44,636 nt of DNA from Halobacterium sp. CBA1126. Its GTDB lineage: Archaea; Halobacteriota; Halobacteria; Halobacteriales; Halobacteriaceae. The position numbers were made by a program, and so were the translations under genes. Below the pieces are notes generated by a model. That model had not been told where the DNA came from. It searched no databases and saw only the letters and a list, made by a program, of their open reading frames with translations. This document shows, piece by piece, positions 9,778-14,787 of the stretch. The stretch is taken from assembly GCF_009741975.1 (NCBI RefSeq), contig NZ_WPCF01000008.1, positions 1-44,636 on the forward strand, read 5' to 3'. Position 1 is the first letter of the stretch, and every line of letters starts with the position of its first letter.

Positions 9778-11331
9778 ATGACCGACACTGACACAGACGC
9801 CGACGAGACGGACGCGCCGGGCGCCGACAGCGTCGCCCTCGACCCGTGGGGGTCCTCGACGGTCTCGGACTACCGCAAGCTCTTCGACGAGTTCGGCATC
9901 GAGTCCTTCGAGGACGTCATCGACGAGGTGCCCGACCCGCACTACCTGATGCGGCGGGCCATCATCTTCGGCCACCGCGACTACCGCCGGGTCGCCGACG
10001 CGATGCGCAACGACGAGCCGTTCGCCGCGCTGTCGGGATTCATGCCGACCGGCGACCCCCACATCGGCCACAAGATGGTGTTCGACGAGATCATCTGGCA
10101 CCAGCAGCAGGGCGCCGACGCGTACGCGCTCATCGCGGACCTCGAAGCCCACGCCGCCCGCGGGCTCTCGTGGGACGAGATCGACGAGCACGCCAGGGAC
10201 TACCTCCTCTCGCTGCTCGCGCTCGGCTTCGACGCCGACGACGGCGAGCTCTACCGGCAGTCCGCGAACCGCGAACTGCAGGACCTCGCGTTCGAGCTCG
10301 GCGCGGAGGCGAACTTCTCGGAGTTCGAAGCCATCTACGGGTTCGACGGCGAGACCGACGTCTCCCACATGCAGAGCGTCGTCACGCAGATGGCGGACAT
10401 CCTCTACCCGCAACTCGAGGCGTCCAAGCCCACGGTCATCCCGGTCGGCCCCGACCAGGACCCCCACATGCGGCTCGCGCGCGACCTCGCCGAGCGCACC
10501 CGCTACTTCAAGGTCACCGAGGCGTACGCGAGCGTCGCGTTCGACGACGACGAGCGCCCGCTGGTCGCCGCCGCCTACGACGCCCGCGACCGGTACGCCG
10601 AGGACGCCGACCAGCCGCGCTGCACGGAGGCCGCCGACTGGCTCCGCGAGGACCCCGCGGTCGTCGGCGAGTACGACGACGACCTCGTCGCCGGCGTCGT
10701 CCAGAAGCTCGAGAACGCGGGAATGGAGCCGCTCCGCCCCCGGATTCGGTTCTTCGACCGGCAGGCGACCGACGAGGCCTTCGAGGCGCTCATCGACGAG
10801 GTCGCCGGCGAGAAGCGCGTCTTCGAGGGCCACGTCGACGCCTTCGAAATCGACCGCGAGACCGCCGAGGACCTCGCGCTCGCCGTCGAGGTCGACCACG
10901 GCGGCTACGGGTTCGTGCCGCCCTCCTCCATCTACCACCGCTTCATGACCGGGCTCACGGGCGGGAAGATGTCCTCCTCGATTCCCGCGAGCCACATCAG
11001 CCTCCTCGACGACCCCGAGGACGGCTACGACAAGGTGAAGGCCGCGACCACGGGCGGCCGGGAGACCGCCGAGAAGCAGCGCGAACTCGGCGGCGAGCCC
11101 GACCAGTGTCCCGTCTACGAGCTGTACGCGTACCTGCTCGCGGGGGACGACGACGAGTTCGCCGAGCGCGTCTACGAGGAGTGCGCCGGCGGCGAGCGCC
11201 TCTGCGGCGGCTGCAAGGAGGAAGCCGCCGAACTCATGGCGGAGTTCCTCGAGGACCACCAGGAGAAACGCGAGGAAGCGAAGGAAGTGCTGGACGACCT
11301 GGACGTCGAGCTGGACTCCGCGCGGGCGTGA
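9778..11331 (+). CDS. trpS: Tryptophanyl-tRNA synthetase
   Basis: Class I aminoacyl-tRNA synthetase charging tRNA-Trp. 517 residues with an acidic N-terminal extension typical of haloarchaea. ATP-binding signatures are PHIGHK (HIGH, residues 95-98) and GKMSSS (KMSKS, about 396-401). VGPDQDPHMRLARDLAER is also characteristic of the archaeal/eukaryotic TrpRS group. A C-terminal cysteine group (CAGGERLCGGC) precedes a charged helical tail. Co-directional with endA across 4 bases, so the two form an operon. Confidence 0.96.
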   Translation: MTDTDTDADETDAPGADSVALDPWGSSTVSDYRKLFDEFGIESFEDVIDEVPDPHYLMRRAIIFGHRDYRRVADAMRNDEPFAALSGFMPTGDPHIGHKMVFDEIIWHQQQGADAYALIADLEAHAARGLSWDEIDEHARDYLLSLLALGFDADDGELYRQSANRELQDLAFELGAEANFSEFEAIYGFDGETDVSHMQSVVTQMADILYPQLEASKPTVIPVGPDQDPHMRLARDLAERTRYFKVTEAYASVAFDDDERPLVAAAYDARDRYAEDADQPRCTEAADWLREDPAVVGEYDDDLVAGVVQKLENAGMEPLRPRIRFFDRQATDEAFEALIDEVAGEKRVFEGHVDAFEIDRETAEDLALAVEVDHGGYGFVPPSSIYHRFMTGLTGGKMSSSIPASHISLLDDPEDGYDKVKAATTGGRETAEKQRELGGEPDQCPVYELYAYLLAGDDDEFAERVYEECAGGERLCGGCKEEAAELMAEFLEDHQEKREEAKEVLDDLDVELDSARA

Positions 11332-11346
11332 CGGCCCGCTGACGGA

Positions 11347-11356
11347 ACCCTTTTGA
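11347..11356 (+). promoter_or_regulatory. TATA-like element before the pheST leader peptide
   Basis: ACCCTTTTGA is centred about 27 bases before the leader ATG at 11380, the position expected if the transcript starts at that ATG (leaderless). It lies about 15 bases past the trpS stop. Confidence 0.45.
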
Positions 11357-11379: not shown

Positions 11380-11457
11380 ATGGCGTCCGAACCCCACGCC
11401 GGTCGCAGCGCACGCGAAGCAGCCGCGGCTCCGGGGTTCGGGTTCTTCTTCGCCTGA
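11380..11457 (+). CDS. Putative 25-residue Phe-rich leader peptide upstream of pheST
   Basis: A 26-codon ORF (ATG 11380, TGA 11455-11457) in the gap between trpS and pheS. It begins MASEPHAGR and ends PGFGFFFA: four Phe (residues 20, 22, 23, 24) in the last six positions, all TTC. The next gene on the strand encodes the phenylalanyl-tRNA synthetase alpha subunit. Bacterial pheST attenuators use a short Phe-rich peptide in this position (E. coli pheM). I know of no established archaeal counterpart. A TATA-like element 27 bases upstream suggests leaderless expression. Function is inferred from composition and location only; chance occurrence of the Phe run is the main alternative. Confidence 0.6.
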   Translation: MASEPHAGRSAREAAAAPGFGFFFA

Positions 11458-11528
11458 GCGAGCGGTGGACGCCCCACGGCGGCGGGAGCCGTCGCGGGGC
11501 CGAACCCGCTCGTTCGGGCCGGGAGCGG
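11456..11528 (+). promoter_or_regulatory. Competing RNA hairpins between the Phe leader and pheS
   Basis: GAGCGAGCGG (11456-11465, overlapping the leader stop) can pair over 10 bp, with one G-U, with CCGCTCGTTC (11506-11515). This would enclose a second hairpin GCCCCACGGC / GCCGT-cgc-GGGGC (11471-11500). The same CCGCTC can instead pair with GAGCGG at 11523-11528, or serve as the loop of CCGAAC/GTTCGG (11500-11517). These states exclude each other. No T run follows, so a bacterial-type terminator is not evident. Confidence 0.45.
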
Positions 11529-11563
11529 AACGGATAACTGACTGCCACACACCCCTACGCACA

Positions 11564-13073
11564 ATGAAACTGCCACCACAGCAGGTCGCGGTGCTCGAAG
11601 CGGCGAGCGCCGACGAACCGAGACGTATCGCCGACCTCGCGGCCGACATGGAGCGGCCGCCGGAGACGGTCACGGGCGCGGCGTTCGAGCTGGAGGACGC
11701 CGGCCTCGTGGACGTCGTCGAGGAGACCGAGGAGGAGGTCGAACTGACCGAGGAGGGCCGCGAGTACGCCGAGGACGGACTGCCCGAGGTCCGACTCTAC
11801 GAGGCCGCGCTCGAGGCCGGCGCCGACGAGTCGCCCGTGTCGATGGGCGAGGTCATCGGCGCGTCCGGCCTCGAGGGCCCGCAGGTCGACATCGCGCTGT
11901 CGAACTACGCCCGGAAGGGCTACGGGGACATCGAGAGCGGCGAGCTCTCCGCGGACCCCGACGCGGACCCGAGCGGGGACGCGGAGGCCGCCGCACTCGA
12001 GGCGCTTGCTTCCGGGGGGTCCGTCGCTGACGACGACGCCCTCGACCAGTTGGAGCGCCGCGACCTCGTCGCCGTCCGCGAGCGCACCGTCCGCTCGGTG
12101 CTGTTGACGGAGGCGGGCGTCACGGAACTCATGGCGGGCGTCGAGGCGAGCGAGGAGGTCGGCCAGCTCACCCCCCGACATGCTCGCGTCCGGCGAGTGG
12201 CGGGACGCGGAGTTCGCCGACTACAACGTCGAAGCAGACGCCGCCGAGTACACGCCCGGGAAGACCCACGTGCTCCGGCAGGCCGCCGAGCGCGTCAAGG
12301 ACGTGCTCGTCGGGATGGGGTTCCAGGAGATGGAGGGGCCCCACGTCGACGCGGACTTCTATATCAACGACTGCCTGTTCATGCCCCAGGACCACCCCGC
12401 GCGCAACCACTGGGACCGGTTCGCCTTGGAGCAGCCCGAGAAAATCGACGACCTGCCCGACGACCTCGTCGAGCGCGTCGAGCGCGCCCACCGCGAGGGC
12501 GTCGGCTCCGAGGGCGACGGCTACCACTCGCCGTGGGACGAGGAGTTCGCTCGCTCACTCGCGCTCCGCGGGCACACGACGAGTCTCACCGCCCGCTACC
12601 TCTCCGGGGTCGCCGGCGCGGACGTCGAGCCGCCCCAGCGGTACTTCAGCGTCGAGAAGGCCTACCGTAACGACACCCTCGACGCCACCCACCTGCTGGA
12701 GTTCTTCCAGATCGAGGGGTGGGTGATGGCCGAGGACCTCTCCGTCCGGGACCTCATGGGCACCTTCCGGGAGTTCTACAGCCAGTTCGGCATCACGGAC
12801 ATCGAGTTCAAGCCCACGTACAACCCCTACACCGAACCCTCGTTCGAGCTGTTCGGCCGCCACCCGGAGACCGGCGAGCTCATCGAAATCGGGAACTCCG
12901 GCATCTTCCGCCCGGAGATGCTCGAACCGCTCGGCGTCGAGGCGGACGTGATGGCGTGGGGGCTCGCCCTCGAACGGCTGCTCATGCTCGTCACCGGCTT
13001 CGAGGACATCCGCGACGTCCACGGGACGCTGTGTGACCTGGAGTTCCTGCGGGACGCGGAGGTGGTGTACTGA
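11564..13073 (+). pseudogene. pheS: Phenylalanyl-tRNA synthetase alpha subunit, with a +1 base in a C run at 12171-12176
   Basis: Class II synthetase catalytic subunit. The N-terminal ~200 residues carry winged-helix tRNA-binding domains (MKLPPQQVAVLEAASADEPR...). The frame breaks at CACCCCCCGAC: with five rather than six C's, QLTP continues to DMLASGEWRDAEFADYNV and then the catalytic core. Core motifs are GFQEMEGPHVDADFYI, QDHPARN, RYFSVEKAYRNDTLDATHLLEFFQIEGWV (motif 2) and MAWGLALERLLM (motif 3). The corrected length is about 502 residues. PheRS is essential, so the extra C is almost surely a sequencing or assembly error. The stop overlaps the pheT start (TGATG). Confidence 0.93.
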
Positions 13074-14787
13074 TGCCCGTCGTCGACATCGACCCCGACG
13101 AACTCCGCACGCTCACGGGCCACACGGAGAAGAGCGACGACGAACTCAAGGACGACCTCTTCGGGCTCGGCGTCGAGTACGAGGGCGAGACGACGAGGGC
13201 GAGTTCAAACTCGAGTTCGAGGCCGACCGCCTCGACCGGCTCTCCGTGGAGGGCATCGCGCGCTCGCTGCGCTACCACTACGGCGACGACCGCGGCGTCT
13301 ACGTCCCCGACACGAACAGCGCCGAGTGGACCATCGACGTGCAGGACGTCCCCGACGAGCGGCCCTGCGTCACGGGCGCCGTCATCCGGGGCGTGGACCT
13401 CGACGAGGACGCCCTCGACTCGCTCATCCAGCTGCAGGAGAAGCTCCACGCGACGATGGGCCGGAAGCGCGCGAAGGGCGCCATCGGCATCCACGACCTC
13501 GCCATGCTGAAAGGTGAGTCCGTCAGCGGAGCGGACGGGAACGCGAGGCGCTCCATCACGTACACGGGCGTCGAGCCGGACGGCGACACGTTCGTCCCGC
13601 TGGACGACGACGCCGAGCGCACGCCCGCGGAAGTCCTCACCGAACACCCGACCGGCGAGCAGTACGCGGACCTGCTCGCGGAGTACGACACCTTCCCCGC
13701 CATCTACGACGACATCGGGCTGTTCTCGTTCCCGCCGGTCATCAACGGCCGGCGCACCGAGGTGTCGACGGACTCCCGGGAGCTGTTCGTCGAACTCACT
13801 GGCACCGACCAGTGGACCATCGACCGGATGTGCGCCATCGTCTGTTACGCCCTCGACGCCCGCGGCGCCACCGTCGAGGACGTCACCGTCGAGTACGGCG
13901 ACACCGAGCTCGTGCGCCCGGACTTCGAGGTCCGGACCAAGCGCGTCCCCCACGAGCGCGTCGAGACGCTGCTCGGCATCGACCTCGAACCCGACGAGGT
14001 CGTCGACCTCGCGGAGCGCGCGGGCCTCGACGCCGAGCCCGAGGGCGGCGACGACCTCACCTACGACGTGGAGATTCCGCCGTACCGCGTCGACGTGCTC
14101 CACCCCGTCGACGTCGCCGACGACATCGGGCGCGCGTACGGATTCAACGAACTCGTGCCGCGCTACCCCGAGGTCGGCACCATCGGCGGGCGCACGGAGA
14201 CCTCGAGGCTGGAGGCCGCCGCCCGGGAGACGCTCGTCGGCCTCGGCTTCGAGGACCTCCTGAACTTCAACATGACCAGCGAGGCCGACAACTTCGAGCG
14301 GATGCGCCTCTCCCCCGAGGACGACGCCGTCGGGGCCGCGGCGCCCGCGACCATCGAGGAGCCCTACAGCGAGGACTTCACCATCCTCCGCACGTGGGCG
14401 CTCCCGTCGCTGGTCTCCGTCCTCGAGAACAACACGCACCGGTCGTACCCGCAGGACCTCGCGGAGATCGGGTTCGCCGCGGGCGTCGACGATGCCACCG
14501 AGACCGGCGTCGCCGAACGCCGCACCGTCGCCGCCGTGCTCGCGCGCCACGACGCCTCCTACGAGGACGCGAAGGCGCGGCTCGCAGCGCTCTGCGAGGA
14601 GTTCCACGTCGACCTCGAGACGCCCGCCACCGACCACCCGTCGTTCATCGACGGCCGCGCCGCCAGCGTCGTCGTCGACGGCGAAGCAGTGGGCGTCGTC
14701 GGCGAACTCCACCCCGCGGTCATCGTCGACCACGACGTCGAAGTGCCGGTCGCCGGCTTCGAGTTCGAACTCGGCGCGCTCCGGTAA
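13073..14787 (+). pseudogene. pheT: Phenylalanyl-tRNA synthetase beta subunit, with a one-base deletion near 13191
   Basis: Beta subunit carrying the B5 and other tRNA-recognition/editing domains. Starts MPVVDIDPDELRTLTG with a one-base overlap of the pheS stop. The frame breaks at GAGACGACGAGG: adding one C (GAGACCGACGAGG) restores ETDEGEFKLEFEADRLDRLSVEG and the rest to a stop at 14787, about 571 residues. B5 domain features are visible in FEVRTKRVPHERVETLLGI and VEIPPYRVDVLHPVDVADDIGRAYGFNEL. The typical catalytic-like C-terminal fold ends the protein. As for pheS, an error in the sequence is more likely than a broken essential gene. Confidence 0.93.

Follow-up and report, generated by a model that had tools for sequence, protein, structure and literature searches.

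A short open reading frame ending in a cluster of phenylalanine codons precedes pheS in haloarchaea, and we consider it likely, on the strength of comparative sequence evidence, that it encodes a cis-acting leader peptide through which the charging of Phe-tRNA would be sensed for the control of pheST. Comparison among relatives establishes the reading frame and its coding constraint, the placement of its promoter, two RNA helices (H1 and H2) and the linkage to pheST; stalling, the response to charging and the direction of control are inferred. The first-pass annotation of this DNA had read the frame as a Phe leader before an archaeal pheST, and that reading is supported by the conservation of the frame, the constraint on its Phe cluster, a promoter fixed relative to its ATG, and the covariation of both helices.

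The leader reading frame and its neighbors

In the window (the whole 44.6 kb stretch of Halobacterium DNA that was analyzed), the leader MASEPHAGRSAREAAAAPGFGFFFA occupies positions 11380..11457 of the forward strand as a frame of 25 residues that starts with ATG and ends in PGFGFFFA and a TGA stop, with Phe codons at 11437, 11443, 11446 and 11449 and hence four Phe among the last six residues. A single instance of GGNTTYGGNTTYTTYTTY was found in the window, and 100 shuffles of the sequence gave none. Upstream lies trpS (517 aa, 9778-11331; NCBIfam NF008928); the next gene downstream is pheS, encoding the alpha subunit of Phe-tRNA ligase (11564..13073, forward strand; Pfam PF01409), whose ATG at 11564 is separated from the leader stop by 106 nt and which is followed by pheT, starting at 13073. 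The frame, its Phe-rich end and its position before the synthetase genes are thus as first annotated, and the TATA-like element claimed for it was recovered as CTTTTGA (11350-11356), which together with the BRE CGGAACC (11343-11349) makes up promoter P1 (11343..11356, forward strand), with the transcription start placed at the A of the leader ATG. The assembly is a draft of 209 contigs, and its pheS is best matched by those of Halobacterium species. The frame of pheS seems to shift near 12175 and that of pheT near 13190; these frameshifts are probably assembly errors, since the frames of relatives are intact, and the leader is unaffected. The leader peptide matched no Pfam or NCBIfam model at E 1.

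Conservation and distribution

With PheS as the query, 80 named loci and the genomes of the family, class and phylum were collected, and a Phe leader was scored as an ATG-initiated frame of 18-50 codons with at least three Phe in its last nine residues, located within 350 nt before pheS. Such a frame is present in 122 of 162 distinct haloarchaeal loci compared to 0.0008 expected per locus (the background being four instances over 1.42 Mb taken from these loci and two in 3240 dinucleotide shuffles), and its occurrence before pheS is not due to chance. The first-pass annotation had proposed that regions upstream of pheS be compared for a short frame with Phe codons clustered near its end, and had named the absence of such a frame from related genera as grounds for refutation; the frame proved instead to be widely conserved. 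Examples are MAPESH...SGFGFFFAR in Natrinema, MPSESQ...TGFGFFTAA in Haladaptatus, MTSEPD...AGFGFFFRA in Halogranum and MAPEPT...RSGFGFGFFSGA in Halosimplex, and the leader is kept before pheS even where trpS is distant.

A covariance model of the leader region (R1), built on 67 sequences, listed 95 genomes, one of them through a chance hit. With that hit removed, the leader was recovered from 94 of 116 Halobacteria genomes and 38 of 45 genera, each time at pheS and once per genome. Four weak additional matches were inspected and all were chance occurrences away from pheS, most of them in coding sequence. Judged from these surveys, the leader is present across most families of Halobacteria, and, with 23 pheS loci from other classes of the same phylum showing no leader of this arrangement, it is by the same measure restricted to the class, with some losses. 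No Phe leader was found in Halarchaeum, Halonotius and Halohasta (two loci each), in Haloquadratum (one locus) or in some others, apparently reflecting repeated losses.

Coding constraint on the leader

All 106 loci scored (106 of 106) have the GGRTTCG element at a distance from the leader ATG that is divisible by three, without an intervening stop and with variable length, and leaders range from 24 to 29 codons across species. Codons Phe2 to Phe4 switch between TTC and TTT yet stay Phe, and Phe2 and Phe3 are essentially never replaced by Leu; the rare TTT is used for 21% of the Phe codons in leaders but for 4.5% of those in pheS (P 5e-29). Only the Phe tail and the codons accounted for by helix H1 are conserved, the middle of the peptide being free in both sequence and length. 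In 127 of 128 loci the 12-mer with the highest U content in the leader transcript falls within the Phe tail, a property that is largely a consequence of the Phe codons themselves.

Promoters and spacer

Alignment of 128 leaders on the ATG alone revealed C at -37 and A at -34 and -33 (BRE), TTTT at -29 to -26, and a pyrimidine at -1. This P1 geometry is standard for a haloarchaeal start at the A of ATG, indicating that the mRNA of the leader peptide is itself leaderless. A candidate second promoter, P2 (CGGAACGGATAAC, 11526..11538, forward strand), has a predicted start at 11563 that would yield a near-leaderless pheS mRNA. Of 128 loci, 83 carry the motif CGGAACCGCTAAC at 37-68 nt ahead of pheS, and the 65 strict copies are followed at 36-37 nt by a pyrimidine-A (YA) initiator; because the geometry is that of P1, pheS is likely to have a near-leaderless transcript as well, and from the motif's distribution this is probably the case in many species. 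A logo aligned on the pheS ATG had given the impression that pheS lacks a promoter of its own, which was wrong, the P2 motif having been blurred by its variable spacing. Leader and pheS may lie on one transcript from P1, but transcription from P2 may bypass the leader, which counts against a sensor. In Haloferax volcanii, Table 2 of a published study gives a transcription start site upstream of the pheS uORF and, within that table and for optimal growth, none at pheS itself, and a long 5'-UTR has been published for pheS (PMC4983044).

The spacer between the leader stop and pheS measures 35-259 nt. A run of four or more T between these points was found in 0 of 128 loci where 3.7 were expected, so that an intrinsic terminator of the bacterial type is unlikely.

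Two covarying helices

RNAalifold, given the alignment alone, returned two helices. H1 pairs codons 3-5 (CCGAAYCC) with the Gly1-Phe1-Gly2 codons (GGRUUCGG); in the window its 5' arm CCGAACCCC spans 11387..11395 (leader codons 3-6) and its 3' arm GGGGTTCGG spans 11433..11441, both on the forward strand. Codon 5 CCC is accompanied by Gly1 GGG in 61 of 65 loci and by GGA in none, and codon 5 TCC by GGA in 38 loci and by GGG, as a wobble, in eight; the pairing thereby accounts for the conservation of MxxE(P/S) at the N terminus as well as for the codon bias at Gly1. The spacing between the arms changes by whole codons only. Mapped on a pheS tree, the codon-5 trait changed at least 10 times and the Gly1 trait at least seven, nearly always together where scorable, the well-supported pairs being too few for significance.

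H2 (11459..11512, forward strand) follows directly after the leader stop and comprises an outer stem (11459-11465/11506-11512), an internal loop (11466-11470/11501-11505) with the conserved sequence YGGAC/CGAAA (CGAAC in the window), and an inner stem (11471-11475/11496-11500), laid out across species as CGGYGGAC, a variable stem-loop, and CGAAACCG. The YGGA/GAAA core has what we take to be a resemblance, and only that, to a motif of three consecutive sheared G-A pairs. Paired cells amount to 93% in H1, 79% in the outer stem of H2 and 90% in its inner stem. Changes on both sides of a pair number 189 for H1 and H2 together versus 70 in shuffles, with none of 500 shuffles as high, and the covariation signal of both helices is abolished when the pairing partners are slid. 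An Rfam scan of the region gave a best E of 0.19, to unrelated families and all under the gathering score.

H2 is missing in some loci that bear a leader (L010, L101 and L102). In L101 and L102 the Phe leader stands just 35-37 nt before pheS, and H2 is thus dispensable at least there. Pairing of the 3' arm of H1 with the 3' strand of H2, which would make the two helices mutually exclusive, was also considered; six of eight pairs are possible, but they are invariant, show no covariation and include a conserved mismatch, and the pairing is neither supported nor excluded.

A tryptophan leader upstream of trpS2

A table of H. volcanii uORFs published in 2016 contains, with mapped transcription start sites, a 26-aa uORF before HVO_2948 pheS and a 23-aa uORF before the Trp-tRNA ligase gene HVO_A0127 (PMC4983044 Table 2, rows 12 and 13), and trpS2, the paralogous second haloarchaeal trpS, was therefore examined, including both plasmid and chromosomal loci. 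An upstream frame starting with ATG or GTG and containing at least two Trp within five residues was found in 32 of 37 trpS2 loci, where 0.04 were expected. The Trp residues form motifs such as WRW, WQWRW and WRWW (for example MTSALRWRWHAVSRADSVVAARDAA), and the leaders lie 100-300 nt upstream of trpS2 (loci L187-L193 and L271-L300). Codons 3-5 (TCCGCTCCC, TCCGCTCTC or TCCACTTCCC) form a helix with an arm located just past the Trp codons (GGGAGCGGA, GAGAGCGGA or GGGAAGTGGA), for which 92% of cells are paired in 29 sequences and 31 changes affect both sides versus 10.7 in shuffles, none of 500 of which matched the observed number.

In L189 and L193 the trpS2 leaders have 13 codons, a GTG start and a lone Trp codon by the stop (VSTSRETDERRWR and VSTSPETDERLWR), and the helix arm is found beyond the stop.

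In 33 of 35 loci, a pyrimidine-rich, near-invariant element, GCTC(A/C)CTC...TTCTC, occurs 21-70 nt past the stop of the Trp leader. This element bears a partial resemblance to the 5' arm of the helix, and it could serve as a rival arm or signal termination. As far as sequence comparison can tell, the combination of leaderless start, start-proximal arm, cognate codons and closing arm is one that recurs with another amino acid at its own synthetase, and the cognate-codon leader is thus not a one-off. No convincing Phe leader was found before pheA in 20 loci, and no convincing Trp leader before trpC in 20 loci or before the main trpS, the kind present in the window, in 17 loci.

Proposed mechanism and alternatives

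With transcription starting at the A of its ATG, the leader would be translated by a ribosome that loads on the 5' end and proceeds through 24-29 codons to the Phe cluster. Under a shortage of charged Phe-tRNA, the ribosome would stall at the Phe codons and cover the Gly-Phe-Gly arm of H1, so that the 5' end stays open and H2 can form past the stop; with ample Phe-tRNA, it would reach the stop, cover the base of H2 and leave, whereupon H1 could close over the 5' end. The stalling and its dependence on Phe-tRNA charging are inferences, and so is the direction of control: the stalled state would favor pheST expression, starvation being expected to raise the synthetase. The step most likely affected is transcription, with the stalled ribosome shielding the U-rich tract of Phe codons from the termination factor FttA/aCPSF1 and so letting RNA polymerase traverse the untranslated spacer. 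FttA/aCPSF1 binds U-rich RNA, and its steric exclusion by coupled ribosomes has been proposed (PMC11616081). The U-rich Phe tract and the U preference of this factor make ribosome-protected antitermination our first choice, with control of translation or mRNA stability next; this termination step is likewise inferred, and we favor it only tentatively and without proof.

That the same sensor acts on translation or mRNA stability is itself possible, if on balance doubtful: H1 might close the 5' end, H2 might be exposed to a protein or nuclease, or ribosomes might pass on to pheS. H1 does abut the 5' end, where leaderless initiation requires open RNA, the conserved internal loop of H2 would suit protein binding, and the spacer lacks a U-tract terminator. 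Against this, the spacer of 35-259 nt is in most species too long for simple stop-start coupling, and the pheS AUG region was open in every state modeled, its openness barely changing when a stalled ribosome was included in the folding. Leader-dependent masking of the pheS start codon was rejected on the same grounds, with no clear effect in 74 modeled loci.

Explanations that dispense with sensing fare worse when set against the pattern of constraint. It is improbable that the leader is a constitutive uORF setting only the basal expression of pheST; H. volcanii uORFs do precede unrelated genes as well, according to the tabulated part of the published data (PMC4983044 Table 2), but here the clustered codons specify the cognate amino acid at two separate synthetase loci, and in the 17 or 20 loci compared for each, pheA, trpC and the main trpS have no convincing cluster of this kind upstream. 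A trans-acting role of the leader as a small functional peptide, with no cis sensor, would be in keeping with a conserved frame under coding constraint and is nonetheless very improbable, given that only the Phe tail and the H1-explained codons are conserved, that the leader is always at pheS and once per genome, and that its counterpart at trpS2 carries Trp instead. We give equally little credence to a cis-acting RNA structure or DNA operator alone, in which the Phe codons would be incidental: the two helices are real and some codon choices (GGR at Gly1) do follow from H1, yet Phe2 to Phe4 lie outside H1 and retain TTY with the third base free to be C or T, the arms of H1 move apart by whole codons only, and Trp codons replace Phe before a Trp synthetase.

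Returning to the leader peptide as a sensor of charging, a broader proposal, which we regard as speculative and on present evidence less than probable, is that archaea have an amino-acid attenuation of their own, built from leaderless leader peptides (Phe at pheST, Trp at trpS2), a helix near the start that is reset as the ribosome moves, and antitermination by the stalled ribosome against FttA/aCPSF1, a factor of the CPSF type, without the remodeling of an intrinsic terminator.

Relation to known systems

In Escherichia coli, pheM encodes a leader peptide with clustered Phe codons and is associated with the pheST attenuator. The archaeal leader is likewise a short frame with clustered Phe codons that immediately precedes the genes for Phe-tRNA ligase and is followed by a hairpin, from which a readout of Phe-tRNA charging would be expected. 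It differs from pheM in starting leaderless at the 5' end without a ribosome-binding site, in having the start-proximal H1 that closes on the Phe codons, and in lacking a terminator composed of a GC-rich hairpin and a U run; no sequence relation has been shown. Of the features that define control of the pheM/trpL type, a short frame in which cognate codons cluster ahead of the matching gene is thus present, with a Trp parallel, and a U-run intrinsic terminator before the structural gene is not (no T4 or longer in any of 128 spacers); as for mutually exclusive hairpins, H1 and H2 each covary and the pairing that would exclude one or the other does not. In control of the tnaC/Rho type, a stalled ribosome blocks factor-dependent termination, and the ribosome proposed here would similarly keep a termination factor off the RNA while stalled near the leader stop. 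The archaeal factor would be FttA/aCPSF1, which is unrelated to Rho (PMC11616081), and its involvement is only a proposal. The T-box riboswitch also places synthetase genes under the control of tRNA charging but needs no reading frame, and neither it nor any other Rfam family was matched in the leader region.

The first-pass annotation had considered leader-peptide control not to be an established archaeal mechanism, in agreement with a paper according to which neither attenuation nor antitermination of transcription had a known example in archaea (Blombach et al. 2021, PMC8448881). The searchable literature, which largely does not cover subscription journals, yielded no description of an amino-acid leader peptide from an archaeon. 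The Phe leader resembles the kind of phenylalanine-supply sensor that has until now been known in bacteria alone, and constitutes a concrete and genetically tractable candidate for archaeal attenuation, being present in H. volcanii. If the proposal is true, the reading of tRNA charge by ribosomes arose or persisted in cells that lack Rho and whose transcription is eukaryote-like, and the leader offers a direct test of regulatory transcription-translation coupling in archaea.

The reading frame itself is not wholly new, having been tabulated without interpretation for H. volcanii in 2016. For the uORFs at pheS and at the Trp-tRNA ligase gene, the tabulated entries give length, mass and pI only, and Phe or Trp codons, conservation, structure and regulation do not figure in them (PMC4983044). 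In the genome we took to be Haloferax, the Phe leader has 26 aa, a mass of 2822 Da and a pI of 5.9, versus 2772 Da and 5.9 in that table.
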